Positions 4,291 to 50,908 of a DNA stretch of 64,000 nucleotides are shown here, piece after piece (positions within the stretch are counted from its first letter, which is position 1; every line of letters starts with the position of its first letter). Location: positions 17,347 to 81,346 of the IMG/VR virus record IMGVR_UViG_3300028007_000001; one strand, given 5' to 3'. The position numbers and the translations under genes were made by a program. Source of the DNA: a virus. The notes beneath the pieces are model-generated. The model was not told the origin of the DNA. It ran no database searches and saw only the letters and a list, made by a program, of their open reading frames with translations.

Positions 4291-4384
4291 AGTGGTGGCG
4301 CCGTAGGAAGGTGGTGCGGAGAGGAAGGGGTACGCAACCTCACTTCCACCTTCCTTGCCGAACAGCCCCGAGTGACACCTTACA

Positions 4385-4621
4385 TCAATCGAGCGCCGAG
4401 GGAAGACCCTCGCCAGGAATTTCGGATTCTTCCACCATCCGACCGTAGTGGCGAGCGGCTCGCATCACTCGACGGCACAGCAGGACGAGCCAGAACGACC
4501 CCCACGCCACCGCCCCGAAGGTGTAGAGGGGATTGATCGAGAACGCCACCGCCAGGATGGCGATCCCCACGATCAGCCCGAAGACTGCTGCTACGCCCCC
4601 GGCTAGGGCTAGAACTCCCAT
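4385..4621 (-). CDS. small membrane protein with two TM helices
   Basis: 78 residues. Two hydrophobic segments (about 3-29 and 34-50) are separated by a short polar turn, and followed by RRVMRAARHYGR, which should lie in the cytoplasm. GGGAG precedes the ATG. It is the last gene of a leftward three-gene unit and abuts the upstream stop at 4623. Function unknown. Confidence 0.7.
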   Translation of the reverse strand: MGVLALAGGVAAVFGLIVGIAILAVAFSINPLYTFGAVAWGSFWLVLLCRRVMRAARHYGRMVEESEIPGEGLPSALD

Positions 4622-24216: not shown

Positions 24217-24316
24217 TCGACCCGGCGAAAACCCTCCCGAGGGCAAGGTCAAGCAGTCTGATCGAGACCGGGAACAGAAAACTTTCCAGCGTCCGGGCAC
24301 GGAGGTCCGCAAGTGA
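24173..24316 (+). CDS. small disordered protein overlapping portal end
   Basis: 47 residues, highly charged (KDQNPKSDRPGENPPEGK), ATG after GGAGGAAG. It overlaps the portal 3' end by 44 nt and the next start by 4. Predicted disordered. Unknown. Confidence 0.5.
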   Translation: MTENETTKDQNPKSDRPGENPPEGKVKQSDRDREQKTFQRPGTEVRK

Positions 24317-26184
24317 ACGAGAAGGTCGCCACCTTGCAGCGTCACCCCAAGAACAAGTCTCTCTCTGAGGCCGTTCAGGAGGACGCCCCGAAGTTCAAGG
24401 CCGTCTCCAAGAACGGCATCAACAAGCGGTCGACGCTGATCAAGGCTCCCGGTGACGAGGGTCAGGTCGGTGGGATCATGGAGCCGACTGCTGAGCAGTT
24501 GGAGAAGATCAACCAGTTCACTCGTCGCACCGTCTCGGCCGAAGAGGTCTGCGTCCTGCCCACCCTGTCGTGCAACGACTTGGTGGACCGGGACTACGAC
24601 CAGTTCGTCAAGCAGTGCGTCAAGGACTTCGCCGCAATGGAGCAGCCGTTCTCTCCGGTCGGCAAGTCCTTCATGGTCGATCACGCCTACTCGGTCGCCA
24701 ACGCCGTTGGACGGATCTTTGACGTGGGGACGAAGACGATCAACAACGCCTTCTTCCTCACCAACGACGTATACATTCCGAACACCGAGAAGAACTCGGA
24801 CTTCCTTGAAGATGTCGAGTTCGGAGTCAACTGGGCTGTCTCGGTTGGCGTGGTTCTCGGGAAGTCGGAGTGCTCCGTCTGCGGAGAGCGGTTCTCTTCG
24901 TGGGGATATTGGTGCATCAACGGCCACGACAAGGGCCTGCACTACACGAAGGACGCAGAAGAGGATTCTTTCGGATGGCCCATTCCGTGTGAGCCGTCCG
25001 AGAAGGGCGCCATCCTCTGCGTCCGGCAGTTCTCTGACCCGAGGGACTTCTACGAACTGTCTCAGGTCTTCCTGGGGGCGCAGTATTACGCCGCCCTGGA
25101 GCGTGACCCCGAGATGGACGGAATCCTCAAGGCTGCGAGCGCAGAAGGCATTCCTGTCATCGGCCTGTCGGAAGAGCAGGCCAAGGAGATTCCGTTCCGC
25201 CACGAACCGCCCAAGGTCACGGAGGCCCGACTCGCTGGTCTGGTTTCCGAAACCGAAGACGGTCTCGTCAAGTGGACGGACGAGCAGGGTTTCCTCTGGG
25301 TCTACAACCCGCAGGAACCTGAAGAGGGCGTGATGTCGCTCGGAAGGTCTTCGGAACACGAAGACGAAGATGTCGAAAACGACAAGGAGGCCAGCGATGG
25401 CAGTGAGGAACTGGACGAACATGCTTCGGGGAACGACGCAGCGGGAGACGAGCAACACGCTCAGCCCGACTCGTCGGGTCGGAAGCAGCATCGGTCGGAA
25501 GATCCGGGGTCGGAAGTCGGCTCAGTTCAACCGGGGTCGTCGGGCACGCTGACCGCAAGTGCCGACGAGGACGATTCCGAAGAGGAAGAGTCCGACCCGG
25601 ATGAAGTCGCTGGTGACGGCGACGAGTCGGAGGACGGCGGGGAAGAAGACGAGGCCGAGGAAGATTCGGAATCCGAGACGGTGGATGCGGTCGCCGCTGC
25701 TCGGAGAGCCGGTCTTCCTTCCGAACTGATTTCCTCGGTAGTTGGTTCGGGAACGGCGACGGTCGAGTCTCTCTTCTCCGCTGCCTCCGCAGAGATCAAG
25801 GCCCTCCGCAAGACGATCACGAATCTGGAGGCCAAGGGAGAGATCGCTGACAAGTACGTGGAGGAACTGCGTGCTGACGCCCTCTCCTGGTACATCAAGT
25901 CTCGCCAGGCCGGTGAGCAGCGACCCGTCAAGACCGAAACTTTCGAGAAGTTGCTCGATCGTTGCGGTGACGACGTGGAACTGATCAAGGCTCTGCGGGA
26001 CGAGCAGAAGGAAGCCGCCCACGCCAAGTTTCCCAAGTCGGTTCGGCGGTCGACCTTCCCTGGCGATCCGCACGAAGTCGAGCGGCCTCGTCTGTTCGGT
26101 GCGGACGATCGAACCGAGGAAGAGGAAGTTTCCGAAACCGTTGATTCGGCGGGAGACACGAAGGTCAGACGAATCCACGGCTAA
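24313..26184 (+). CDS. capsid maturation protease fused to scaffold
   Basis: 623 residues from GTG 24313. The N-terminal domain (about 60-340) contains FMVDHAYSVANAVGRIFDVG (about 120-139), where His and Ser are candidates for the protease active site, and a zinc-like CSVC...C cluster (about 194-210). Residues about 350-460 are an Asp/Glu/Ser low-complexity linker. The C-terminal 150 residues are helical, as in delta or scaffolding domains. Position between portal and capsid genes supports protease plus scaffold in one chain. Catalytic residues are inferred. Confidence 0.72.
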   Translation: MNEKVATLQRHPKNKSLSEAVQEDAPKFKAVSKNGINKRSTLIKAPGDEGQVGGIMEPTAEQLEKINQFTRRTVSAEEVCVLPTLSCNDLVDRDYDQFVKQCVKDFAAMEQPFSPVGKSFMVDHAYSVANAVGRIFDVGTKTINNAFFLTNDVYIPNTEKNSDFLEDVEFGVNWAVSVGVVLGKSECSVCGERFSSWGYWCINGHDKGLHYTKDAEEDSFGWPIPCEPSEKGAILCVRQFSDPRDFYELSQVFLGAQYYAALERDPEMDGILKAASAEGIPVIGLSEEQAKEIPFRHEPPKVTEARLAGLVSETEDGLVKWTDEQGFLWVYNPQEPEEGVMSLGRSSEHEDEDVENDKEASDGSEELDEHASGNDAAGDEQHAQPDSSGRKQHRSEDPGSEVGSVQPGSSGTLTASADEDDSEEEESDPDEVAGDGDESEDGGEEDEAEEDSESETVDAVAAARRAGLPSELISSVVGSGTATVESLFSAASAEIKALRKTITNLEAKGEIADKYVEELRADALSWYIKSRQAGEQRPVKTETFEKLLDRCGDDVELIKALRDEQKEAAHAKFPKSVRRSTFPGDPHEVERPRLFGADDRTEEEEVSETVDSAGDTKVRRIHG

Positions 26185-36937: not shown

Positions 36938-39900
36938 TTGCCTGGGAACAGCACTGACAGACACAACCCTGGGATCCACATCGAAGCGACGGGCCGTACC
37001 GCTGGTGCGGTGCGTGCCCTCGCTCGATTGGAGCAGGCTGCTGCTCAGTCGTGGTGGGGTCTCCACAACCTGGGCCTCGCATTCGCAGCCCTTCCTGCCG
37101 CCGTAGGCGCCGGTACTGCTGCTGCCGTGAAATGGGCAGCGGAGTGGGAGAAGGGCATGAAGGGGGTCGCTCGGGCGGCTGACCTTCAGGGGAAGGCTCT
37201 GGACGACCTGGAGAACTCCCTCAAGAGCATTGCTCGGATCAAGCCGATCTCACCGGGCGAGATCCTTGGCGTTGCTCAGTTGGCAGGGCAGTTGGGCGTA
37301 GAGGGTGAGAGGGCCATCTCTCGCTTCACCAGTGTCGTCACTGACCTTGTGGCGATTTCGGAAGACCTGACCTTCGATCAGGCGGGGCGATCTATCGCTC
37401 GTATCGCCGCTTCTGCCGAGGTAGGAGCGGAAGGTTTCGACAACATCGCTTCTGCCATTGCCAAGGCCGGTATCGCAACTGCTGCATCGGAAGGCGAGAT
37501 CTCCAAACTCGCTACCGACCTGGCCGGTATCGGTGCAACTTTCGGATTCTCGGCAGACAAGATCATCGGTTGGGCAGCCGCTCTGCGTTCTGCGGGTGTT
37601 CCGGCAGAGCGTGCTCGTACGGCAGTGCTCAAGACTGCCTTCGACATCTCCACCGCTGTCGGTGAGGCTGGAGACGAGATCGAACTGTTCGCTGAAGTCG
37701 CCGGTATGTCCGTGTCGAAGTTTTCGGATTTGTTCCGGAGGGATGCCAGCGCCGCCATGACCCAGTTCGTTGTTGGGCTGGGAGACTTGCAGGACAGCGC
37801 ATCTGGCGCTGAGCAGGTTCTTGCTCAACTCGGCATCACTGAGGCACGTCAGTCTCAGACCCTTTTGCAGTTGGCGACCATGCAGGCTCAGAGCGCCAAC
37901 TCCAACGCCCAACTCACGTCGATCCTGGAGATGACAAACCAGGCGTACGTCGAAGGTCTGTTCCTTGGCGAGCAGACCGCCACGATGTACGGAACGCTTT
38001 CGGCTCGACTGCAAATGTTCCGAAACTTGGTGCATGAGGCGGGAGTGAGTTTCGGCCAAGCCTTCCTTCCTGCTCTGAAGCAGGCCGTCGAGTGGGCGTC
38101 GAGGTTCGTTCTCGGAATCATCAACCTCCCAGGACCGATGAAGTTGGTCATCGCCGCTCTGGGTGGCCTGGTGACGGTGTTCAGCGCCGCATTGGCAATC
38201 GTCACCCTCTTCGGCCCGAGAGTCGCCATTGCTACGGGAGCCTTGCTTCACCTGATCGGTGTGATGGGCGGCAGCGCCGCATCGGCCGAGAAGTTGAAGT
38301 CCAAGATGCACGAACTCGGGTTCTCGTTCGGAAAGGTTGACACCGAGGTTCGTCAGTCTGTTGGCGGAATGATGATGGCTCAGTCTCAGGCTGAGCAGAT
38401 CCAACATGCGCTACTTCGGCTCGCCAACGCCATCGACCGGGTGAGCAACAGTTTCGCAAACCTTACTCTTCGGGTTCGTACTGCATCTGCTGCGATGGGA
38501 GAGAAGATTCGTTCTGCTCTCGGCCTTGCACGTGCAGAGGACATCGTGGAGAAGGAAGTCAACGATGTCACCATTGCCATGCATCGTCAGCAGTCGGCTT
38601 CTGTGTCGTCCGGCACTGCTATCTCTGGTGCTGGTGCTGCCGCCGCTGGAGCCACATCTCTCTTTGCTCGATTCCGGGGCATCGTGGCGGGACTCGGAAA
38701 GACGTTCCTGTTCCTCCTTCCTCTCTTGCTTGCCTTCCAGCAGATCTGGAGCCGGGGAGGCGGCGAGCAGAAGCGAATCGAAGCCCAGCAGAAGTTGGGC
38801 GATACGACGAAGCAACTAGCGGCGTACCTAGCCAGAAGCAACGACCTGTCTCGGGAGCAGGCTCGTCTGTTCCTTCAGGGCAAGGTTAGGACGGAAGAAC
38901 TTTCCGAAAGCATGAAGAAGTACGGAGAGTTCTCTGGTAGCGCCGCCAAGAACATCCAGGCTGCTGCTGAGGCATTCGGTGTGAGCGCAGGCGCTCTCGC
39001 TAGCGCCGTGTTCGCTGACGCTCAGGCTGAGTTGGAAGCCATCGGAATTGGGTCAGAACGTGCCGCTCGGGGAACGATCGACCTGGGTGACTCGGCCGAA
39101 GAGACTGCACGGAAGGTTCGTGCTGAGAGAGATGCACTCCGTGAGTTGGCAAACCTTCTGGAGCAGATTGCTCAGGCCCACATCGACATCGTTGAGGCCG
39201 AGATCCGGCAGAGAGAAGCCGCTCTTGCCGTCGCTCAGGCGCAAGAGCGTTACAACGAGGCTCTGGCCGCAACGAAGGACCGCACCGAGGCCATCCGACG
39301 TGCAGAGCATGATCTTCAGCAGGCTCAGATGGCTCGGGAGCAGTCCATCCTTCGTTTGCAGGAGGCGCAGTATCAACTCTCGATCGCTCGCACTCTCGCA
39401 ACCGAGAGGGTTGCCGAGGCAGAGGATGCTCTGGCCGACTCTCAAGACAGGCTCCTTCGTTCGCAGCAGAATGTTTTGGATATCGAGCAGGAGATCGCTG
39501 AACTCCGTGCTGGCCCTACGATGGAAGAGATTCTTCGGGCCACCAATAAACTGCGTGACGCTCAACTCAGCCTTGTCCGGTCGACTCAAAGCGTTTCCGA
39601 TGCTCAGTGGTTGCTGAATCACCTTCGACAAGAGGGTGCGGGCGCCCGAGACATTCGTGAAGCCGAGATGAAGTTGGAAGAGGCTCGGCTTTCAGTTTCG
39701 GATTCTCAACTCGACTTGATCGAAAGCGAGAGGGAACTCGCAGAACTCCGTGACGAGACTCTTCGCCAGCAGAGGATCAACGAACTGGAGCGAGAACTCG
39801 CTGCTGCTCGTCGTGATGTGGACGAAGCCACCAGGGCGATCGCTAAGGCAGAGCGGGAACTCCAAATTGCTCGGGACCGTTTGAAGAATGATTCCGATTA

Positions 39901-42310
39901 CAAGGAGGCAGAACTCGCTCTTGGTCAGGCTCGCCTGAGTCTCAAGGATCAGACGAACGCAGTCAGGGACGCAGAGAACGCCCTGGCTAGGGCGAGGTCT
40001 GGGAATGACGCCGCTCGGGCTTTGGAAGAGGCCGAGATCGCTCTTGAGCGTGCATACCTCAACTCTGCCGAGGCGGCAGTCGAGGTACAGCGTCAGACAG
40101 CCCTCATGGCGGGCCAGAACTGGGACGCTGGAGACTCTGCTCGGGCACTCGCTCAGGAACTCGACAAGATCGGAGACTCGATCAACATCGAGCCTGTCCG
40201 AAAGAGGATCGAGGAAATCTCCGAGGCGTTGATGAACGCCCCCTCTGTCCCTGAAGTCCCCGAAGCCTTCTCTGACGCTGGCGAGGATGCCGCCGGAAAC
40301 TTTGCAGACTCGTTCGGGGACGAGATGGGGGATGCCATTCCTCTTGCTCTTGATGGCATTGGTCAGACCGCAGTTCAGAAACTTCTTGGAGATATGGAGA
40401 GTTCTGCCTCGGGAGGCGGCGGAAAGAAGAGCATCTGGGAACGACTCCTTGACCCTCAGCGGTTCATCGTTGGTGGCGGTGTCGGTAGTGCGGTGGGTGC
40501 CATCGTCGGAGCCATCGTGGGGGCGTTCGGTGGTCCCATTGGTATCGCTGCTGGCGCCTTCATCGGTCAGTGGGTCGGAAGCATCGTGGCGATCTTCTGG
40601 GAAGAGATCACCGCAGGTATCGGGTGGGTCGCCAAGAACATTCCGAAGCACGGAGGCAAGATCATTCAGGGCCTCTGGGACGGGATCGTTGAACTCGGAA
40701 AGGATCTGTTCTGGAATTGGCCGAAGAGGCTGATCGGGTGGATTGTAGACCCGCTCCTGAATACTTTCCGAATGAGGTCTCCGTCTCGGTTGATGGCCGA
40801 TATGGGCAAGAACATCATCCGAGGGCTTCTCAACGGCATCAAGGAAGTCGGCCGAGACGTTCTCCAGTGGTTCCGTGACCTGCCTGGAAAGATCGTCAGC
40901 GCCCTTGGTTCTTTCGCTAGCACGGTCTCTCGGTTCTTCCGTGAGAACAACCCGATCAAGATTCTGGGCGAGTTCCTGAGCGATCGTTGGAAGAGCGTCC
41001 GAGAGTGGCTGAAGGAACTTCCCGGAAAGATCACTGGTGCGATCGGTGATCTCGGCGGCGCTGTTGGAAAGGTTCTGAACCCGATCAAGAACGCATTCAA
41101 GAAGCCGTTCGAATGGGTCTGGGACAAGATCCTCAGTCCGTTCTTCGACGTGATTATGAAGATCGCTGACGTGATCCCCGACGTCGACTTCAAGAAGCCC
41201 GCCAAGCCGAAGTTCGGAACTGTCGAAGAGCACCACCGAGGCGGCGTCGCAGGCAAGGGCAAGAAGAAGCGCCGACTGGACTCTCTTCGTCCTGGCGAGG
41301 TTCCTGCCGTCCTCCAGTCCGGAGAGGGCATCATCTCCCGTCGAGGGATGCGGCTTCTCCCCGAGGGCTACCTCGACGCTCTCAACAAGGGGCGTGCTCC
41401 TGAGACGGGTGGACCCAGCCTGAAGGACGTTGCCAACGCTGTTGGAGGCGCTGGAGGGTGGATTCGGGATAGAGCGGGTGACGCTGTTTCGTTCGTGGTC
41501 GAGAAGTTCCGTGAGGCTGCTGCTTGGGGTCTGGAGCGTCTCGTCGGACCAATCAAGTCCGCAATCCAGAAGGCCGGAAGTCTTTTCGGATTCCCTGGAG
41601 AGATGCTCGCTGGCTTGATGACAACTCCTGTCGATCGAGCCATCGAGTGGATCCGTGGTGCCCAGAAGGACACCGAGGGGATGTTCAAGATCGGGTCCGG
41701 CCTGCACTACGGCATGGGGGCCAGCGCATCCGGTCCTCTGATCGACTTCCTGAAGTCGTCGGGGTTCAAGTACGGGCGGGACTTCCGAGTCACTTCCGTC
41801 TGGCGCCCCACCGATCTCGACAGCCTCCACTCCAAGAGGAAGGCCGTCGACTTCGGAAACCCTGGCGGTCCTGGAATTTTGACCCCAGGGCTGAAGAAGA
41901 TCTTCGACGCCTTTGCTCGGGTGAAGGATCAACTGTACGAGTTGATCTATGCAGGAGCGGACTGGAACATCCTGCGAGGAAGGGTCGTCCCGATCCACAA
42001 GGTCCGGCCCACCCTCCAGATGTCTCACCTGGATCACGTTCACGCTGCTCTGGCAGACCAAGGGCGAGTGATTCCTCCTGGCCTGTCGATGATCCTCAAC
42101 AAGACAGGACTCCCGGAGTACCTCCTTCCGAATGATTTGGTTCGGGGGATGATTATGAAGGACGACATGATGCGGATGCTTTCCGCTCTGGAGAGAGATC
42201 CGGTGGTCTCGGGTGGCGATACGTTCAACTTCAACATGATCCCTACTGCCACTGCTCACGAAGTCGTCCGAGAAGTGTTCTGGCAGAAGAAGATCACGTC
42301 GAGGGGGTGA
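36938..42310 (+). CDS. tape measure protein with C-terminal peptidase domain
   Basis: 1790 residues from a TTG directly after the chaperone stop, GGAGG 10 nt upstream. Ala-rich helices near 30-60 and hydrophobic stretches near 400-430 and 585-600 are followed by a long Glu/Arg/Leu heptad region (about 700-1080). A Gly/Ala hydrophobic patch (about 1180-1225) may cross a membrane. From about 1585, SVWRPTD, SLHSKRKAVDF and HLDHVHAAL match an M15-type zinc peptidase (H, D, H ligands), suggesting murein cutting during DNA entry. At about 1.5 A per residue the tail would be near 270 nm. Confidence 0.9.
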   Translation: MPGNSTDRHNPGIHIEATGRTAGAVRALARLEQAAAQSWWGLHNLGLAFAALPAAVGAGTAAAVKWAAEWEKGMKGVARAADLQGKALDDLENSLKSIARIKPISPGEILGVAQLAGQLGVEGERAISRFTSVVTDLVAISEDLTFDQAGRSIARIAASAEVGAEGFDNIASAIAKAGIATAASEGEISKLATDLAGIGATFGFSADKIIGWAAALRSAGVPAERARTAVLKTAFDISTAVGEAGDEIELFAEVAGMSVSKFSDLFRRDASAAMTQFVVGLGDLQDSASGAEQVLAQLGITEARQSQTLLQLATMQAQSANSNAQLTSILEMTNQAYVEGLFLGEQTATMYGTLSARLQMFRNLVHEAGVSFGQAFLPALKQAVEWASRFVLGIINLPGPMKLVIAALGGLVTVFSAALAIVTLFGPRVAIATGALLHLIGVMGGSAASAEKLKSKMHELGFSFGKVDTEVRQSVGGMMMAQSQAEQIQHALLRLANAIDRVSNSFANLTLRVRTASAAMGEKIRSALGLARAEDIVEKEVNDVTIAMHRQQSASVSSGTAISGAGAAAAGATSLFARFRGIVAGLGKTFLFLLPLLLAFQQIWSRGGGEQKRIEAQQKLGDTTKQLAAYLARSNDLSREQARLFLQGKVRTEELSESMKKYGEFSGSAAKNIQAAAEAFGVSAGALASAVFADAQAELEAIGIGSERAARGTIDLGDSAEETARKVRAERDALRELANLLEQIAQAHIDIVEAEIRQREAALAVAQAQERYNEALAATKDRTEAIRRAEHDLQQAQMAREQSILRLQEAQYQLSIARTLATERVAEAEDALADSQDRLLRSQQNVLDIEQEIAELRAGPTMEEILRATNKLRDAQLSLVRSTQSVSDAQWLLNHLRQEGAGARDIREAEMKLEEARLSVSDSQLDLIESERELAELRDETLRQQRINELERELAAARRDVDEATRAIAKAERELQIARDRLKNDSDYKEAELALGQARLSLKDQTNAVRDAENALARARSGNDAARALEEAEIALERAYLNSAEAAVEVQRQTALMAGQNWDAGDSARALAQELDKIGDSINIEPVRKRIEEISEALMNAPSVPEVPEAFSDAGEDAAGNFADSFGDEMGDAIPLALDGIGQTAVQKLLGDMESSASGGGGKKSIWERLLDPQRFIVGGGVGSAVGAIVGAIVGAFGGPIGIAAGAFIGQWVGSIVAIFWEEITAGIGWVAKNIPKHGGKIIQGLWDGIVELGKDLFWNWPKRLIGWIVDPLLNTFRMRSPSRLMADMGKNIIRGLLNGIKEVGRDVLQWFRDLPGKIVSALGSFASTVSRFFRENNPIKILGEFLSDRWKSVREWLKELPGKITGAIGDLGGAVGKVLNPIKNAFKKPFEWVWDKILSPFFDVIMKIADVIPDVDFKKPAKPKFGTVEEHHRGGVAGKGKKKRRLDSLRPGEVPAVLQSGEGIISRRGMRLLPEGYLDALNKGRAPETGGPSLKDVANAVGGAGGWIRDRAGDAVSFVVEKFREAAAWGLERLVGPIKSAIQKAGSLFGFPGEMLAGLMTTPVDRAIEWIRGAQKDTEGMFKIGSGLHYGMGASASGPLIDFLKSSGFKYGRDFRVTSVWRPTDLDSLHSKRKAVDFGNPGGPGILTPGLKKIFDAFARVKDQLYELIYAGADWNILRGRVVPIHKVRPTLQMSHLDHVHAALADQGRVIPPGLSMILNKTGLPEYLLPNDLVRGMIMKDDMMRMLSALERDPVVSGGDTFNFNMIPTATAHEVVREVFWQKKITSRG

Positions 42311-42313
42311 GTC

Positions 42314-43150
42314 ATGGCTGCTGGGGACTTGATCAACCGGAAGAAGCAGTACGAGTTCCGAAACCTTCTGATCGGATCCAACACGGTCTACGTGGTGGAG
42401 CAGGTAGACGGTTTGCACTCAATGCCCGAGATCGAGAGGACCGACACGGAGTACCAGTTCAAGCATGGCTCTGCTCCTGGCTTCGTTCGCATGGCAGAGC
42501 GAGAGATCGAGATCGAGATGAAGATCGACAGCAGCGTGGACGACATCGGATCCGCCCTTGCTGCCGTCAGGAGTGCTTTCCAACTACCACGACGTAGGTT
42601 CTCACGAACTCTGGAACCTTTCGTCTGGATGGATGACGACAACATCAAGAAGCGAGTGATGGCACGATGCCTTCGTAGAAACATTCCATCCGACTACGAA
42701 CTTGCCCTGGGGCTTGGTCAGGTGGATCTTCTCTTGGTAGCCCCCGACCCAATCATCCTCTCCAACACGCTCAGGAGCGCCCAGGTCAACCTTGGGGTGG
42801 GATCTACGAGCGGAAGCGTCGACATCGAGAACCTGGGCGACTTCGTAGACGGCTACGACCCGACCATCCAGATCCAGGGTCCGTTCGTGAATCCTCGGAT
42901 CACCAACGAAAACGACGACTTCCGCCAGATCAAGATCGACGTGGAAGGCGGGGCCGCAGACGTTCTGGAGATCAACGTCAAGAACAACACGGTCACTCTG
43001 AACGGAGTGGACGTGTTCGAAAAGGTTCGGACTGACAACCTCTGGTGGTCGGTTCTTCCGGGAACGAATCGGATTGTTTACGACCGTGATGGGTCAGAAG
43101 TCTCGGCCGCTTCCAGGCTGACGATCTTCTGGCGAGACACCTGGCAGTAG
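42314..43150 (+). CDS. distal tail (Dit-like) protein
   Basis: 278 residues following the tape measure gene. A beta-rich N-terminal half (YVVEQVDGLHSMPEIERTDT), then APDPIILSNT and a galectin-like C-terminal part (VGSTSGSVDIENLGDFVDGY) fit the siphovirus Dit family that forms the hub at the tail tip. Gene order supports it. Confidence 0.75.
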   Translation: MAAGDLINRKKQYEFRNLLIGSNTVYVVEQVDGLHSMPEIERTDTEYQFKHGSAPGFVRMAEREIEIEMKIDSSVDDIGSALAAVRSAFQLPRRRFSRTLEPFVWMDDDNIKKRVMARCLRRNIPSDYELALGLGQVDLLLVAPDPIILSNTLRSAQVNLGVGSTSGSVDIENLGDFVDGYDPTIQIQGPFVNPRITNENDDFRQIKIDVEGGAADVLEINVKNNTVTLNGVDVFEKVRTDNLWWSVLPGTNRIVYDRDGSEVSAASRLTIFWRDTWQ

Positions 43151-43621: not shown

Positions 43622-44629
43622 ATGGCTCGACGGAGATTCAACTTCATCAAGGGGCAGACGAGCGACAGCCCTCTCTCTTCTGTGGCGCTGGCGTTCTCTT
43701 CTCCTGCTCTGGCGTCTCTTCCTGCCATCACGGCGCCGGATTACGTTGCCATCACCTTCGACCCCGATGGGAGCGCCCCGGAGATTGCGTGGATCACTGA
43801 CCACGTAGCCGGATCTCAGGTCGCCACCATCGTCCGAGAGAAGGAAGGCACTACCGCTGCCGAGTGGCCTCAGAACACGAAGTGGGTCCACGCCCCCACG
43901 AAGTACGACTGGGAAGAGGCTGCTTGGAGCATCGGTGATCTCCGGTGGTCTACTCGATCTGACCTGGGTCCGAACTGGGAGCAGGTCGATCTTCAAGAGG
44001 TCAGTCGTACCGACTATTCCGAACTTTTCGCAATCGTCGGAACTGCGTTCGGTGCAGGCGACGGACTCAACACCTTCAACCTCCCTGGTGCGTCAGGTCG
44101 TGTTCCTGTCGTGGTTGGTAGCGGCGCTGGTCTCACCGCTCGCAGCCTTGGAGATAGTGGCGGCGCCGAGACTGTGGTTCTGGGAACTCCGGAGATCCCG
44201 GCTCACGACCACGGCGCCGCTGGAACTCACTCGCACACGATCTCCACCAACGGTGGAGGAAGCCATAGCCACAACATTTCCACTAACGATTCAACGCACT
44301 CCCACAACACCGACAGTCATAGTCACTTCCACGACGTGGGGTACACGACTGACTTGGCAGGTGGTGGTGGCGGTCGTCAGGTCAACAACGCTGCTGGTGG
44401 TAACGCCGTAGCCTCAACGTCGAACGAGAGTCATTCTCACAACGTGAGCAACAGCACTCACTCACACTCCGGAAACACGAACACTGCGAGCAATCACACT
44501 CACACCGGCAATACAAATAACGTTTCTGATCACACCCACGCATCTGTCGGTGGAGGTCAGCCGCACCAAAACATGCCTCCCTACTTGGCCGTGGGGTACT
44601 TGCACATCAAGGTCAGAGACGACTTGTAG
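43622..44629 (+). CDS. tail fibre with collar domain and His-rich region
   Basis: 335 residues. Residues about 130-175 (YSELFAIVGTAFGAGDGLNT, then FNLPGASGRVPV) are the phage collar domain of receptor-binding fibres. The C-terminal 140 residues hold many H-S-H and H-x-H motifs in Gly/Asn/Ser-rich sequence (SHSHNISTNDSTHSHNTDSH), closing with QNMPPYLAVGYLHIKV. Histidine-rich fibre tips commonly bind iron or zinc ions along the fibre axis. Likely adsorption protein. Confidence 0.8.
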   Translation: MARRRFNFIKGQTSDSPLSSVALAFSSPALASLPAITAPDYVAITFDPDGSAPEIAWITDHVAGSQVATIVREKEGTTAAEWPQNTKWVHAPTKYDWEEAAWSIGDLRWSTRSDLGPNWEQVDLQEVSRTDYSELFAIVGTAFGAGDGLNTFNLPGASGRVPVVVGSGAGLTARSLGDSGGAETVVLGTPEIPAHDHGAAGTHSHTISTNGGGSHSHNISTNDSTHSHNTDSHSHFHDVGYTTDLAGGGGGRQVNNAAGGNAVASTSNESHSHNVSNSTHSHSGNTNTASNHTHTGNTNNVSDHTHASVGGGQPHQNMPPYLAVGYLHIKVRDDL

Positions 44630-44662: not shown

Positions 44663-46717
44663 ATGCCTCTGGGACAGAACGTTTACGGAACTCAACCATA
44701 CGGAGGGGAGGCATTCCCCTCTATCATTGTCATCGACACTGCGGTCGAGGAAGAGTACGGCATCCTCGTGCTGGAGTCGGTCGGTGATGTTCCTCTGCCT
44801 GCCGTCGAGGAAGAACTTGAGTCGCCGGTTCTCGATCCTCGGTTCATCCTCGGGTCCGATGTCACGATGCTCGGCTTCACCGTCGACATCTACGTCGTGG
44901 ATAAGTTCGGAAATCGGCTTGCCCAACTTCCCAACGCCAAGGTGAACTCGATCTCAGACGTTCTGAACTCTCCTGACACGGCCTCGATCTCTGTCGACCC
45001 GCTCGATCCAGGGGTTCGTAACTTGAGCCTGGTCAACAAGGAAGTTCAGATCTGGATCGACGGAGATTTGAAGTTCTGGGGCCAGCCGTGGCGAGTAAAC
45101 GGAAACTTTCGAGAGATCACGTTCGAACTGGAAGATCCAATGGGGTCTTTCCGAAAGAGGATCATCGACCGTACCTCACTGATCTATACCAGCATCGAGC
45201 AGAGAGACATCGCCTGGGAGTTGCTCAACTACGCCCAGCAAGACACGATGGACGGCCAGACCAATCGTGACCTCAACATCACCAAGGGCGAGTGGAGCGG
45301 GGTGTCGAGACTTCGCTCTCGGCAGTATCTCCGAGAAGAGCACCCCAAGATCTATCAACTCCTGGAAGAGTTCCCTCTCTTGGACGGTGGGTTCGACTGG
45401 GATCTCGTATACAACCTCGATGCCGCCGTCTCGTACGAAGAAGAGGTACTGAAGCGCAACCCGATTGGGTACTGGATTCTTTCGGATTCAGACGACACCG
45501 ACACGGCGTTGGACAGTTCCGGGCAGGGGCGCCACGGAGTGATCATGGGGGATCCTCTGAGAGTCTCTGGGATGCTTCAGGACGATCCCTACGGCGCCTT
45601 GCACTTCACCGGGGTTGACGAGTACGTCGACATCGAGGACGACGTGTGGTTCGACGGTGGTGCCTTCACCGTCGCTGCGTGGGTGCAACTCCACTCCTAC
45701 GTCGACTACCAGAGGTTGATCGAGTTCGGAGCCGGTCAGGACAACAGCAACGTCGTCCTGTTCTTGTCTGCTGACGCCGCCAACTCTCGCAAGGTCGGTG
45801 CCTTTCAGTTCAACGGTGCGGTGCAGAGCAGCATCGTGTACGCCCCGTCGTCTCTCAACCTCGACACGATCTACTTCCTCGTCTTCGCCTACGACGGAAA
45901 CGGAAACCTCAAGATCTACAAGGACGGGGTTCTTTGGGCGACCCTTGCGTTCGGAGATCCTGACAACGTTCTCAGGACGACCAACTACATCGGAAAGTCG
46001 GAGTGGGGGCACATCGGACTCACTCAGGGCATCATCCAGCACGTCGCCATCTTCTCGGAAGAACTTTCGGATTCTGTCGTCCAGAGGCTCTACGACACAG
46101 GACAGGGGACGTTCGACACCCGAGTCGAGCGTCAGTGGCAGCCATACCACCCCCGCAAGGGGATCGCTCGCATCCGGGAGAAGTTGATTTGGAAGGCAGA
46201 CGAAGAAGGCAAGGAAGACCTCAGAAACATTTTGTCGTTCTCTTGGAGCGAGGACGCTGTTGGCATGGCGACGGAGGTATACGCCCTCGGAGGAACGTCG
46301 TCTGAAGGCATCCGGTTCGAAGGTATCCATGAGAACGTTTCCAAGAGCGCAGAGTATGGCGTTCTGCAAGAGGTCTGGTCAGAAGGCGACACACTCGACA
46401 CGACATGGCTCACCGACAGGGCGAAGCGAGAGGTTCTCGATCGAGAAGAGCCTGCCGTTGCAGTCAGCATCACAGGCGCTCAAGGCGTAGACCCAGACCT
46501 GGCGAGCACGATCGACGTTGGTGATTGGCTGCCGATCGTCATTGATCATGGGAGGATTCAGGTAGACGCCTACTATCGGGTGTCTACGAAGATCTGGAGG
46601 CCCGACAACACCTTCGATCTGGAGTTCGACCCTGAGTACCGGACAGAACTCGACTGGTACGACTACCGAGATCACTCTTGGCAGTCGTTGGAGAACAAGG
46701 CATGGAGTGACCTATGA
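44663..46717 (+). CDS. tail hub/minor tail protein with inserted LamG domain
   Basis: 684 residues. The flanks (about 70-240 and 520-684) are typical minor tail protein sequence (SISVDPLDPGVRNLSLVNKE; WLTDRAKREVLDREEPAVAV; ending in a Trp/Tyr-rich strand), as in Tal/gp27-type hub proteins. Between them, from NPIGYWILSDS to about residue 490, lies a concanavalin/LamG-like domain (SGQGRHGVIMGDPLRVSG; FTVAAWVQLHSYVDYQRLIE; LKIYKDGVLWATL). The insert probably binds host surface glycan. Confidence 0.78.
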   Translation: MPLGQNVYGTQPYGGEAFPSIIVIDTAVEEEYGILVLESVGDVPLPAVEEELESPVLDPRFILGSDVTMLGFTVDIYVVDKFGNRLAQLPNAKVNSISDVLNSPDTASISVDPLDPGVRNLSLVNKEVQIWIDGDLKFWGQPWRVNGNFREITFELEDPMGSFRKRIIDRTSLIYTSIEQRDIAWELLNYAQQDTMDGQTNRDLNITKGEWSGVSRLRSRQYLREEHPKIYQLLEEFPLLDGGFDWDLVYNLDAAVSYEEEVLKRNPIGYWILSDSDDTDTALDSSGQGRHGVIMGDPLRVSGMLQDDPYGALHFTGVDEYVDIEDDVWFDGGAFTVAAWVQLHSYVDYQRLIEFGAGQDNSNVVLFLSADAANSRKVGAFQFNGAVQSSIVYAPSSLNLDTIYFLVFAYDGNGNLKIYKDGVLWATLAFGDPDNVLRTTNYIGKSEWGHIGLTQGIIQHVAIFSEELSDSVVQRLYDTGQGTFDTRVERQWQPYHPRKGIARIREKLIWKADEEGKEDLRNILSFSWSEDAVGMATEVYALGGTSSEGIRFEGIHENVSKSAEYGVLQEVWSEGDTLDTTWLTDRAKREVLDREEPAVAVSITGAQGVDPDLASTIDVGDWLPIVIDHGRIQVDAYYRVSTKIWRPDNTFDLEFDPEYRTELDWYDYRDHSWQSLENKAWSDL

Positions 46718-47334
46718 CCCTCAACGGAGTCACCCGCAGCAAGACCGGCCTCTACATCCCTGACGTGACGGATACGTCCGTCCCGGAATCTCTGATCGCA
46801 ATGGGAGACGGTCTTGAGAGCCTCGATGACAAGATCGGAAAGGTTCTCATTGCCGAGGTCGAGTTGCTGGCAGACACCGCATCCTTCGACTTCCAGAGCA
46901 TCCCTGACGACTTCACCCACCTTCTGATCTGTGGATACGCCCGGAGCACCAGAGCATCCAGCAACGACTCCATCGTCCAGTCGTTCAATGGGGATACGAC
47001 AGACGCCAACTACAACCGCCAGTCCTTCCTCGCCAACTCCACGACCCTTTCGGGGGCGATCGCAAGCGACAGGGTGGCCGGACACATTCCAGGCAACAGT
47101 GCCACTGCGAACAGGTTCGGAGCCTTTGAGATTCTCATTCCGAACTACGCTCAGGCGACCAACAACAAGGCGACTCTTGCCCGGTCGTGGTATACGAGCA
47201 CAGGCGCAGTTGCTCTAGCCTTCTACGGAACTCAGTGGGCCAACAACGCCGCCATCAACCGAGTGGTCTTGTCGCTCGGGACGGGACCGAATTTCCTTGC
47301 TGGCTCTCTGGCAAGCCTCTACGGACTGGGGTAG
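46714..47334 (+). CDS. minor tail protein
   Basis: 206 residues, ATG overlapping the hub stop. A short N-terminal helix precedes a beta-sandwich-like domain (FTHLLICGYARSTRASSNDS; FGAFEILIPNYAQATNNKAT) seen in actinophage minor tail proteins. Possible receptor-binding component. Confidence 0.68.
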   Translation: MTLNGVTRSKTGLYIPDVTDTSVPESLIAMGDGLESLDDKIGKVLIAEVELLADTASFDFQSIPDDFTHLLICGYARSTRASSNDSIVQSFNGDTTDANYNRQSFLANSTTLSGAIASDRVAGHIPGNSATANRFGAFEILIPNYAQATNNKATLARSWYTSTGAVALAFYGTQWANNAAINRVVLSLGTGPNFLAGSLASLYGLG

Positions 47335-47337
47335 GTC

Positions 47338-47568
47338 ATGGATGAACTTTCGGAAATTGTAACAGTCGACTGCTCCACAGGAAAGGTGACTCGACGCCCT
47401 CCCACAGAGCAGGAGATCGAAGAGCACGAACTCCAGGTCGCCAAGACAGCCGCAGACGAGTTCTTGCGAGGCGCCCTGGCCGCTCAAGCCATCGAAGACC
47501 TTCGAAGCCTCGCTCCGTCCGAAGAGTTTGCTGACCACGTTCTTCGGATGATCGGCTGGATCCCGTAG
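47338..47568 (+). CDS. small tail-region protein
   Basis: 76 residues, acidic helix (PPTEQEIEEHELQVAKTAAD) ending LRMIGWIP. Resembles short proteins next to tail fibre genes that may act as fibre chaperones. ATG follows GGGGTAGGTC. Confidence 0.58.
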   Translation: MDELSEIVTVDCSTGKVTRRPPTEQEIEEHELQVAKTAADEFLRGALAAQAIEDLRSLAPSEEFADHVLRMIGWIP

Positions 47569-47588: not shown

Positions 47589-48173
47589 GTGCCTGGTGGA
47601 AACGTTAGCAAAGATTCTGATCCCGCATCGGTACTTCTCGACTTGATCCATCGAGTAGAGAAGTTGGAGCGTCGTGCCATCCCTACTGGCACGATCGGAG
47701 AGTTTCATCTGAGTTCAGAATTCCTTGCAAACATTCTCAAGGGAAACTGGGATTTCAGTGTGCTTTCTACCACCGATCCCTCGGCCGTTGGAGTTATCAC
47801 CGACTGGGGCGACCCTGTTACGGAGTGGATCGAGTTCGATGACTACCCGGAGGGCAAGACTATCCAGGTATTCGCAATGATTGTGGGAAGCGCCAACGCT
47901 CTTACGACTTCCGAAGTCAACCGAGGGTGGATGCGATCAGGGGTCTCTATCGACGGAGGATCCTCGTATTCCTGGGGTAACGCACAGTACGTCTTCTCAG
48001 GAGGGGCGACCAACACCCGATTGATGGGAGGCGTAGGGATTGCCACAGTCGTTGGAGTGCCAACTGGAATCATTCGGGTTGGCGCTCAATGCGAGCACGA
48101 TTCGGGACCAACCAATGGCAACTACCGCTTCCAAGGAGGGAACCTCTTTGGCATGTGGAGTGTCGTCGCCTGA
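47589..48173 (+). CDS. tail fibre-like structural protein
   Basis: 194 residues from a GTG. A short helix (SVLLDLIHRVEKLERRAI) typical of trimer leaders is followed by TIGEFHLSS and a beta-rich Gly/Ser C-terminal domain ending FGMWSVVA. Likely a trimeric tail or receptor protein. Confidence 0.65.
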   Translation: MPGGNVSKDSDPASVLLDLIHRVEKLERRAIPTGTIGEFHLSSEFLANILKGNWDFSVLSTTDPSAVGVITDWGDPVTEWIEFDDYPEGKTIQVFAMIVGSANALTTSEVNRGWMRSGVSIDGGSSYSWGNAQYVFSGGATNTRLMGGVGIATVVGVPTGIIRVGAQCEHDSGPTNGNYRFQGGNLFGMWSVVA

Positions 48174-48214: not shown

Positions 48215-48943
48215 GTGCCCGAACTGCGTGATGGATCAACTGCCGAGGACGTGAGACTCGACCGCCTCGTTCTTTTCGATGAACGAAGCAGAGAGTTTCC
48301 GATCAGCACTGTCGTTGAAGGACTACCTCTCAGGTCTCGGTCCTGGTGGTGTCCCCCGCACCTTGATCAAGGCCGTGAGGGTGCTTGCGTAGGCTTTGCC
48401 TGGGCGCACGAACTCTGCGCTGTGCCCAAGATGCACGGAGTGACGGCCGACTTCGCACGCACCCAGATCTACTGGGAGGCTCAGAAGATCGACCCTTGGG
48501 ATGGAGGCGCCTACCCCGGCGCCTCTCCCTTCTACGAGGGGACGGCTGTTCTCGCAGGAGTCAAGGTTCTGCAAAAGCAGAATCTTTACGAAGGCTACCG
48601 ATGGGCCTTCAACATCGAGGACGCCATGAGGGCTATCGCATACGAAGGCCCAGTCGTCATGGGACTTCCCTGGTACGAGTCGATGTACGACACTGATCGT
48701 GACGGTTGGCTTTGGGTGGACCGCTCTTCTCGCCAGGTCGGAGGTCACGCCATCCTCGCCCGAGGCGTTCTTCTCAAGTCACCACTCGGAGAAGTGATCA
48801 GATTCCGAAACTCTTGGGGCAAGTCCTGGGGGGTCAACGGGGACTGCTTCATCCGGGTCGAAGACGTGGAGTGGTTGCTCAAGAACCAGGGAGAAGTTTG
48901 CGTTCCCTACGGCCGCAAGAACAGGAGGACCGCAAATGGGTGA
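48215..48943 (+). CDS. papain-like (C1A) cysteine protease
   Basis: 242 residues from GTG 48215; a longer frame to 48089 overlaps the fibre gene and is rejected. DQGREGACVGFAWAH (about 52-66) holds the oxyanion Gln and catalytic Cys; VGGHAILARGV (about 180-190) the catalytic His; RNSWGKSWGVNGDCF (about 203-217) the Asn-Ser-Trp-Gly motif. All C1A landmarks are present with no signal peptide or pro-domain. Gene order between tail fibres and endolysin suggests cleavage of virion or cell-surface protein, or host protein at lysis. Papain-type enzymes are uncommon in bacteriophages. Confidence 0.85.
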   Translation: MPELRDGSTAEDVRLDRLVLFDERSREFPISTVVEGLPLRSRSWWCPPHLDQGREGACVGFAWAHELCAVPKMHGVTADFARTQIYWEAQKIDPWDGGAYPGASPFYEGTAVLAGVKVLQKQNLYEGYRWAFNIEDAMRAIAYEGPVVMGLPWYESMYDTDRDGWLWVDRSSRQVGGHAILARGVLLKSPLGEVIRFRNSWGKSWGVNGDCFIRVEDVEWLLKNQGEVCVPYGRKNRRTANG

Positions 48944-49049
48944 CGAGGACATCGTTCACGAAGACGAAGAGGTCGACGCCGAACCTCAATTCCTGAGCGA
49001 AGAAGAGATGGCCTTCCGCCAGGACGAACCCGACATCCACAAGGACTGA
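48936..49049 (+). CDS. small acidic protein
   Basis: 37 residues, 15 of them Asp or Glu (for example DIVHEDEEVDAEP). The ATG follows AGGAGGACCGCAA and overlaps the protease stop; it ends 3 nt before the endolysin start. Possibly a protease- or lysin-modulating peptide (inference). Confidence 0.6.
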   Translation: MGDEDIVHEDEEVDAEPQFLSEEEMAFRQDEPDIHKD

Positions 49050-49052
49050 CCG

Positions 49053-49997
49053 ATGGCAACGATCGTGATCCAGATGGGACACGTTCCCCGGACTCGGGGA
49101 GCGACAGGTACTCACCGAGAGCAGGAGTTCAACAGGGCTGTCGCCCCTCGCATCGAGGCGAGGCTCAGATCGCTTGGGCATACGGTCCATGTGATCGGCG
49201 CAGACATCCGCCCTCCCTCCAGCGACGTGTTCGTGTCGCTGCATTGCGATGGCAGCACGAACCGTGCTCGCCACGGCGCCTCGGTAGGCTACGTGCCAGG
49301 AGATGCCACTGACCAGCGACTCGCTCACGCTTGGAAGCGAGCGCACCAGCGGCACGGATACAGGTGGGGGTTCCTTCCTGACAACTACACCAGGAATCTT
49401 TCCGGTTACTACGCATGGAACTCTCGGGACTCTCGGAGTACGAGAGCGACCTACAAGTTCCTCGCTGAGCACGGCCACACGACGAATCCCGAAGAGGAAG
49501 CGTGGCTCTTTAGCAACCTGGATCAGTGCGCTCAGGCGCACGTGGATGCGATTGGAGAAGTCGTGGGACACCCGAACACCTACGCCCGCCCGGCCGGACT
49601 TCCCGCCCGAGACAAGATCGTGACGGGAGTCGTCGTTCCGAAGACCTCTCCGAATTCGGAAGGTTTCTATCCGACGTGGATTCTCGATGTGTCAGGAGGG
49701 GTCTTCACCCTGCATCGGGCGAAGTTCTACGGATCGGTTCCCGGACTCGGCATCGACCTGCCGAGGGCGGGGCTTCGGGCCACAGACATCGTGCCCACTC
49801 CCACCGGGAAGGGCTACTACGTGCTCGACTCCGGGGGTGGGGTCTACACCTTCGGTGATGCCAAGTACGAGGGCGCCGTGCCCGGCCTGAAGGACGCTCC
49901 TGCGTACCAGAGAGGGCGCTCGTACGTCGGCCTGTCGATCACCCCAGGCGGGTACACGCTCGTCGGTGACGACGGATTCGAAGTGGCATTCGCATAG
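49053..49997 (+). CDS. lysA: endolysin, N-acetylmuramoyl-L-alanine amidase
   Basis: 314 residues. The Amidase_3 zinc domain spans about 1-175: GHVPRTRGATGTHREQEFNR (first His/Glu region), SDVFVSLHCDGS (second His) and a later acidic residue. From about 205, two similar 45-residue repeats (WILDVSGGVFTLHRAKFYGS; YYVLDSGGGVYTFGDAKYEG) resemble actinobacterial cell-wall or esterase-associated repeats and probably bind the envelope. It cleaves the peptide from glycan at lysis. Near 49649 it contains TCCGAATTCGGA. Confidence 0.87.
   Translation: MATIVIQMGHVPRTRGATGTHREQEFNRAVAPRIEARLRSLGHTVHVIGADIRPPSSDVFVSLHCDGSTNRARHGASVGYVPGDATDQRLAHAWKRAHQRHGYRWGFLPDNYTRNLSGYYAWNSRDSRSTRATYKFLAEHGHTTNPEEEAWLFSNLDQCAQAHVDAIGEVVGHPNTYARPAGLPARDKIVTGVVVPKTSPNSEGFYPTWILDVSGGVFTLHRAKFYGSVPGLGIDLPRAGLRATDIVPTPTGKGYYVLDSGGGVYTFGDAKYEGAVPGLKDAPAYQRGRSYVGLSITPGGYTLVGDDGFEVAFA
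49649..49660. repeat. palindrome TCCGAATTCGGA (coding copy)
   Basis: A perfect 12-bp family member inside the endolysin gene, at the linker between amidase and repeat domains. Confidence 0.8.
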
Positions 49998-50066: not shown

Positions 50067-50294
50067 GTGGGTGAACCAAACTCAGTGCTAGAGATCCTTG
50101 ACGCTGCTGGAACCATCGGTCTCTTGGTCGTCATCGTGTTCGGTGCGCTCAAGGGCTGGTGGGTTCCCGGATGGGCGTACAAGAACGCCTTGCGGGAGAT
50201 CGAGCAGTGGAAGGATCTCGCCTTGACAGGGACAGAGATTGCTGAACGGTTGGTGAGGCGTGATGTTGGGGGTCGTCGTGCATCGGACTCGTGA
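50067..50294 (+). CDS. putative holin (single TM, charged tail)
   Basis: 75 residues from a GTG. One hydrophobic helix (about 9-28, AAGTIGLLVVIVFGALKG) is followed by WWVPGWAYKNALREIEQW and a charged helix. This layout is common among actinophage lysis-module membrane proteins. The late motif CATACGTTTAGGGAGG lies 50 bp upstream. Confidence 0.65.
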   Translation: MGEPNSVLEILDAAGTIGLLVVIVFGALKGWWVPGWAYKNALREIEQWKDLALTGTEIAERLVRRDVGGRRASDS

Positions 50295-50538
50295 GCAGAT
50301 CGAGAGTCCCGCTGACCTGCGGACGGTTCTCTCTGCGTTGGCGACCGATTGCCGTACTCAGGATCTCCCTGAGATCGACCGCACTCCCCACATGGAGATC
50401 ACTGCCGAGAACCTCCGGATCCGGCAAGCACTGATTCTTTCGGAATTTCCTACGGAGGAACTGGAAGAAATCAGGAACAACGGCTCGACCAAGCACTCCA
50501 AGATGCTTGTTGCCGAGATCGTTCGACGGATGCTCTGA
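50263..50538 (+). CDS. hypothetical lysis-region protein
   Basis: 91 residues, overlapping the upstream gene by 32 nt (ATG 50263; GTG 50278 also possible). Soluble helical protein (LRTVLSALATDC; EELEEIRNNGSTKH). Unknown. Confidence 0.55.
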   Translation: MLGVVVHRTREQIESPADLRTVLSALATDCRTQDLPEIDRTPHMEITAENLRIRQALILSEFPTEELEEIRNNGSTKHSKMLVAEIVRRML

Positions 50539-50560
50539 ACCCTGTCAAGGAGGTAGGCAA

Positions 50561-50908
50561 GTGGAGTTCGTTCCGATGGCGGCAGTCGCCGCACTGACCA
50601 AGAAGGTCATCGACTTCCTGAAGTACGTCCAGAACCGAGACTGGAACGGTGTCGTGACTCAGGCGATCGTCTGGGGCGCCGGGGTTCTCGTCATCTGGCT
50701 CGTATCAGGGACGGCGTGGGCCACCGGAATCACGGTGGGGAACTTCAACCTTTCCGATCTGAACGCCGAGAGCATCGTGTTCGTCGGACTCACCCTGTCG
50801 TCTCTGAGTTCGGTCGTGCTTCACGACGTTCCTCAGCAGTTGGACCCGACCGTGAAGACGACCCACCAGAAGTTGACCCGCTTGAGAGGGTCGGGAGAAT
50901 CCGAATAG
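50561..50908 (+). CDS. putative holin with two TM helices
   Basis: 115 residues, GTG after AAGGAGG. Two hydrophobic helices (about 24-42, VTQAIVWGAGVLVIWLV, and about 60-76, SIVFVGLTLSSLSSVVL) with an amphipathic N-terminus and charged C-terminus. Last gene of the rightward late block, just before a strong terminator; typical holin position. Confidence 0.72.
   Translation: MEFVPMAAVAALTKKVIDFLKYVQNRDWNGVVTQAIVWGAGVLVIWLVSGTAWATGITVGNFNLSDLNAESIVFVGLTLSSLSSVVLHDVPQQLDPTVKTTHQKLTRLRGSGESE

Follow-up and report, generated by a model that had tools for sequence, protein, structure and literature searches.

A xylellain-type C1A cysteine peptidase gene between the tail and endolysin genes of a tailed phage, and the changing neighbourhoods of its relatives

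The window analysed here is a stretch of 64,000 nucleotides and constitutes part of an 81,346-bp IMG/VR virus record (IMGVR_UViG_3300028007_000001). The protease gene is an ORF for 242 residues on the + strand at 48215..48943, with a GTG start at 48215 and a stop codon ending at 48943. It is preceded by genes for a tape measure protein (36938-42310), Dit (42314-43150), a tail fibre/collar protein (43622..44629, +, with matches to PF07484 and tail PHROGs) and a tail protein with a Laminin_G_3/ConA-like domain (44663..46717, +, PF13385, E=1.7e-16), and then by three ORFs at 46714-47334, 47338-47568 and 47589..48173 (+), the last of which is directly upstream and encodes 194 aa with no family match. 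Downstream are located a 37-aa acidic ORF (48936..49049, +), an endolysin gene (49053..49997, +) whose product has an Amidase_3 N-terminus and C-terminal repeats (PF01520, E=6e-14, and the endolysin family phrog_435), and genes for small membrane proteins. Two of these, one of 75 aa with a single predicted transmembrane segment (50067..50294, +) and one of 133 aa with two (50507..50908, +), are candidate holins by hydropathy only and have no Pfam match. A scan for promoters and terminators around the protease gene gave nothing above shuffled sequence, and no such site separates these genes. The protease gene, between the tail genes and the Amidase_3 endolysin, is apparently part of a late operon. 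The first-pass annotation had placed the gene between fibre and lysin genes, and the Pfam and PHROG matches on both sides agree with this. Its location is that of a lysis cassette in that it adjoins the endolysin gene, the holins being candidate transmembrane genes only.

There are no tRNA genes in the window. A pattern scan of IMG/VR with the endolysin, Dit and the Laminin_G tail protein found no relatives of any of the three, and the phage is therefore far from all relatives sampled in that collection. Between the portal and capsid genes the ORF at 24313-26184 encodes 623 aa, with a prohead-protease-like N-terminal domain and a long acidic scaffold-like part, both assigned by inspection only; its only match is phrog_16951 of unknown function, and BLASTP shows no homology to the candidate prohead protease of locus L070.

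An alternative in-frame ATG at 48089 would extend the protease to 284 aa and overlap the preceding ORF at 47589-48173. The Shine-Dalgarno sequence of the GTG at 48215 is poor, and this codon is nevertheless the best-supported putative start, since the N-termini of the relatives, which begin with MILRDGT or MIQLRGG, align to (M)PELRDG in the window. The acidic ORF, with a calculated pI of 4.1, has its start overlapping the protease stop. A perfect AGGAGG lies 7 nt upstream of the ATG, and the ORF is for that reason probably translated. The suggestion that this peptide might be an inhibitor of the protease found no support: no counterpart is present beside the protease in the relatives examined, tblastn with the peptide gave no match among 50,697 phage records, and a role as a conserved protease inhibitor was accordingly rejected.

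The catalytic set of the protease, Gln52 (48368-48370), Cys58 (48386-48388), His178 (48746-48748) and Asn199 (48809-48811), has the order and spacing of papain. The stretch from the oxyanion Gln52 to the nucleophile Cys58 (QGREGAC, 48368..48388, +) is spaced as Q19-C25 in papain, His178 stands in a GGH motif (48746..48748, +), and Asn199 opens an Asn-Ser-Trp-Gly motif (48809..48820, +). Q52, C58 and H178 are invariant in an alignment of 23 relatives and, together with D22, in an alignment of 47. The larger collection of 98 diverse relatives came from a scan seeded on the Gln-Cys motif, and only its His and Asn counts are independent; His is retained in 98/98, and the third catalytic position is Asn or Gln in 98/98, with Asn in most and Gln in 6/98 (locus L065 has GDH and locus L066 has NNW). 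The correct placement of the active-site Cys and His, on which the first reading depended, is thus confirmed by alignment.

PHROG 16701 ("peptidase") matches over its full length (E=2.4e-57, residues 14-234 against positions 4-232 of 234 in the profile). As a single sequence the protease scores 20.3 bits against Pfam PF00112, just short of the cut-off (20.7, E=6.5e-4). The matches of a profile built from the 47 relatives include xylellain (3OIS, 8e-15) and cathepsin B (about 1e-12). The AlphaFold (AF2) model has a mean pLDDT of 91.8 and a pTM of 0.88 and shows a two-domain papain fold; xylellain 3OIS is the top PDB match in Foldseek (TM 0.67), and of the 261 PDB matches at E<=0.001 the 50 listed are all C1A enzymes. 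A chance resemblance to papain-type peptidases is excluded by the PHROG match, the 47-relative profile, the pLDDT of the model and the Foldseek match to 3OIS taken together. The earlier claim of an intact C1A enzyme holds in that the residues are in papain register and family, fold and profile agree, and the product is an intact papain-fold C1A-type peptidase that is predicted to be catalytically competent. Proteolysis should be the selected activity, since the catalytic set is kept across highly divergent relatives. The C1A peptidase is the sole domain found, with no known wall-degrading or wall-binding domain; as a single-domain prokaryotic C1A protein that has no long pro-domain and is nearest to xylellain, it belongs to the xylellain type. 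The gene is a new member of an already known phage family and ordinary in kind.

Ahead of the papain-equivalent mature start there are about 33 residues (1-33) with a conserved FDxRS motif, which is FDERSREF in the window. The segment FDERSREFPI (residues 21-30, 48275..48304, +) lies 5' of the papain-equivalent catalytic domain and is modelled at pLDDT 87, with good confidence from residue 21 on; in the 47 relatives D22 is invariant, and the conservation of S25 is 90% or more. The enzyme had been described as lacking a pro-domain, which is right for a classical long pro-domain but passes over this short conserved segment, which may be a short pro-segment holding the enzyme latent. No signal peptide or hydrophobic N-terminus is present in any of the 98 relatives, and the enzyme is therefore probably cytosolic, unless the opening of the holin releases it. 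A host surface protein, one of the targets proposed in the first-pass annotation, is accordingly unlikely before lysis. Locus L017 (2815-3825) encodes a fusion in which the protease, predicted to be inside the cell, is continued at its C-terminus by a membrane segment and an Excalibur-like tail.

By tblastn the protease matches 54 GenBank phage records, none of them over 60% identity, from phages with Streptomyces, Gordonia, Mycobacterium, Arthrobacter, Xanthomonas and Stenotrophomonas as hosts, and also 25 Streptomyces/Kitasatospora plasmid records. At least 411 loci in IMG/VR were found with a single alignment-derived pattern. A single-protein search of genome contigs gave three matching MAG contigs; the neighbours of L110 and L111, two of these that were scanned together, include phage-type genes. 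A survey of the papain family had already described xylellain-type C1A peptidases as acquired by Myoviridae and Siphoviridae and present in Caudoviricetes (PMC10380794). The statement that phage C1A proteases are rare was thus rejected on these counts, PHROG 16701 and the earlier report; hundreds of tailed phages carry an intact protease of this kind.

In a tree of 98 sequences the window protease groups with that of locus L030 (100/90) and stands well apart from the Gordonia/Arthrobacter branch. Four settings recur among the relatives, namely lysis cassettes, a position after nrdA-nrdB, a position at terminase or portal genes, and a position inside or against tRNA arrays. The neighbourhoods change widely across the tree, which suggests that the protease gene is an exchangeable accessory and not a structural or core gene.

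The reading we favour, at a probability of roughly 0.47, is that the gene encodes a cytosolic xylellain-type C1A endopeptidase, an exchangeable accessory that is expressed late in this phage and cleaves host protein(s). Since it apparently sits in one operon with the tail genes and the endolysin/holin block, the protease gene would be read through from the former and coupled to the latter, and its product would be made late. The enzyme, possibly kept latent at first by the short N-terminal segment, would then act inside the cell on one or more host proteins, and candidate effects are host shut-off, inactivation of a protein of defence or stress response, or the clearing of host protein before lysis. 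Two features of the window count against this, the lack of tRNA genes and the position of the protease gene beside lysis genes, and the second favours a role in lysis. As the window and the whole actinophage branch place the protease in a lysis block, lysis is the main rival.

A lysis accessory would cleave envelope proteins or holin/endolysin-associated proteins after the holin has opened, or would set the timing of lysis. In the window the protease gene stands immediately before the endolysin and the holin-like genes, and lysis cassettes are also the setting in Gordonia phages, Arthrobacter phage Mufasa8, Streptomyces phage ZL12 with a related phage-plasmid, and locus L041. The cassette of the Gordonia phages BlueNGold, Lilbeanie, Cafasso and GMA2 begins with LysA-C39 and continues with LysA-amidase or GH, a gene of about 123 aa, the C1A protease with an overlapping start, and the holin. 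In Mufasa8 the protease follows lysin A and a membrane gene, in ZL12 and the related Streptomyces phage-plasmid the order is tail gene, protease, endolysin, and in L041 the protease is located directly after an Amidase_2 endolysin. The GMA2 authors list Orf38, the homologue there, as a possible lysin (PMC4524720), and those of Xanthomonas phage XacN1 list ORF382 among possible lytic enzymes (PMC5852040). Against this, lysis genes are distant from the protease in most relatives, and outside the actinophage clade the adjacency is near chance: in a scan of 46 relatives' contigs, which covered the two endolysin families PF01510 and PF01520, only 3/46 had one of them within about 2 kb of the protease (the window, L041 and L077). 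A family-wide linkage to lysis was therefore rejected, and the linkage is instead a property of the actinophage clade. The protease family also lacks a signal peptide, as noted above for the 98 relatives, and we regard an accessory role in lysis as possible but tentative.

The gene of about 123 aa, present in every one of the Gordonia lysis cassettes (L018:4591-4959, L020:4615-4986, L023:4594-4977 and L025:4606-4977), belongs to no Pfam family, its stop overlaps the start of the C1A protease, and it encodes a possible partner protein.

A different setting is found in one phage clade, where the C1A protease comes directly after nrdA-nrdB and before a tRNA array beginning with tRNA-Asn (L078, L081, L084, L089, L090, L095, L096, L098 and related loci). 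The loci linked to ribonucleotide reductase all belong to a single clade within an 18-row group, so that this linkage is due to inheritance, and repeated recruitment of the protease beside these genes was rejected.

Proximity to tRNA genes is wider and recurs in several lineages. In L030, the nearest sister of the window protease, the gene is separated from the preceding tRNA-Phe by 18 nt and from the following tRNA-Ile by 2 nt, in the middle of an array of 38 tRNA/tmRNA-type genes called by ARAGORN (L030:1093-14407) that covers nearly all amino acids. With one representative per clade, hand-picked from the tree, a tRNA gene lies within 250 nt of the protease in 8/22 tRNA-bearing contigs against an expectation of at most 2.2 (P about 5e-4), and within 500 nt in 9/22 against 3.0, the random-placement expectation being a conservative upper bound. 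The sample is biased, as the relatives were chosen by similarity to the window and the test covers the protease family alone; a few relatives fetched later have no tRNA genes near the protease. The association may be no more than the effect of a hotspot at which accessory genes in general accumulate. Neighbours of the protease also include KptA/Tpt1, RNA ligase and HNH genes, and such a neighbourhood is a typical host-interaction region. In L031 and L034 a gene for a KptA/Tpt1-type RNA 2'-phosphotransferase adjoins the protease. A phage tRNA array in L074 contains a tRNA-Pyl/suppressor-like gene (4349-4424, anticodon CTA, ARAGORN call).

The association with tRNA arrays and RNA-repair neighbours leads to a special case of the favoured reading, a counter-defence protease whose target would be an antiphage protein of the host or one directed at tRNA. 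The tRNAs of phages and the homing endonucleases linked to them help in escaping defences that cleave tRNA (PMC13096335), which is consistent with such a role. A hotspot effect would however produce the same tRNA pattern, and this phage carries no tRNAs, so we consider the special case unlikely for the protease of the window. In a broader form, the xylellain-type C1A peptidases would be a widespread class for counter-defence or host takeover, repeatedly recruited into tRNA arrays and RNA-repair islands and acting in the cytosol to eliminate a host protein that targets translation or tRNA, with the window copy having moved to a late lysis operon; this we hold to be doubtful, if a little less so.

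The remaining alternatives have fared worse. A virion component, or a protease of head or tail maturation, would fit a gene that follows tail genes, and copies following the portal gene are found in L070 and L091. Most relatives lie outside structural modules, though, and in the proteomics of XacN1 virions the enzymes reported as packed are a chitinase, a lipase and one M23 peptidase, with the C1 peptidase not among them (PMC5852040), which disfavours a virion role. The gene is about 20 kb downstream of the capsid gene and has a C1A fold, unlike what is expected of a head maturation protease, and the candidate prohead protease-scaffold at 24313-26184, recognised by inspection only, would leave no need for a second head protease; such a role is very improbable. 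Least probable of all is a peptidoglycan peptide hydrolase, a second endolysin with a papain fold like those of CHAP, NlpC/P60 and C39, to which weak Foldseek matches to phage proteins named N-acetylmuramidase, "peptidoglycan binding-like" and Lysin A and the name given by the GMA2 authors (PMC4524720) point, against top sequence and fold matches that are protein-cleaving C1A enzymes with the C1A-type Asn-Ser-Trp, the missing wall-binding domain and a canonical amidase endolysin next to the protease.

Cleavage of host protein(s) by a cytosolic accessory endopeptidase thus stays the preferred reading, and the placements in tRNA arrays and in lysis cassettes give two testable hypotheses, counter-defence or lysis. 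Cultured relatives exist, with Gordonia terrae 3612, Arthrobacter sp. ATCC 21022 and Streptomyces, all standard in the laboratory, as hosts. If a defence protein is the target, the protease would represent a new and very common anti-defence family.

Among known systems xylellain of Xylella fastidiosa (3OIS) is the closest in profile (8e-15) and fold (TM 0.67) and shares the Q-C-H-N site and the DQGxxGxC motif, but the identity is 19%, it is a bacterial enzyme studied as a plant-associated factor, and the FDxRS and WYxxM motifs are the phage branch's own. PHROG 16701 matches over the full length and differs by sequence divergence alone. Gordonia phage GMA2 Orf38 and the "cysteine protease" of Lilbeanie, BlueNGold and Cafasso are homologues in a lysis module after tail genes, as in the window, but show about 29-33% identity and belong to a distant clade, with the gene of about 123 aa before and a holin after the protease, where the window has the 37-aa acidic ORF and the amidase after it. 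Streptomyces phage ZL12 (46c) and related phage-plasmids share the order of tail gene, protease and endolysin with the window, whereas ZL12 shows 28% identity and has a 132-aa gene between the protease and the endolysin. The peptidase of the Streptomyces phages BillNye, Muntaha and Wakanda (Stanwilliamsviridae) is 43-45% identical and likewise has no signal peptide, but its gene is located after the terminase and before a tRNA array, away from lysis genes. ORF382 of XacN1, a C1 family peptidase that its authors count among possible lytic enzymes, is homologous, but is encoded by an isolated gene near metallophosphoesterase and ribonucleotide reductase genes.
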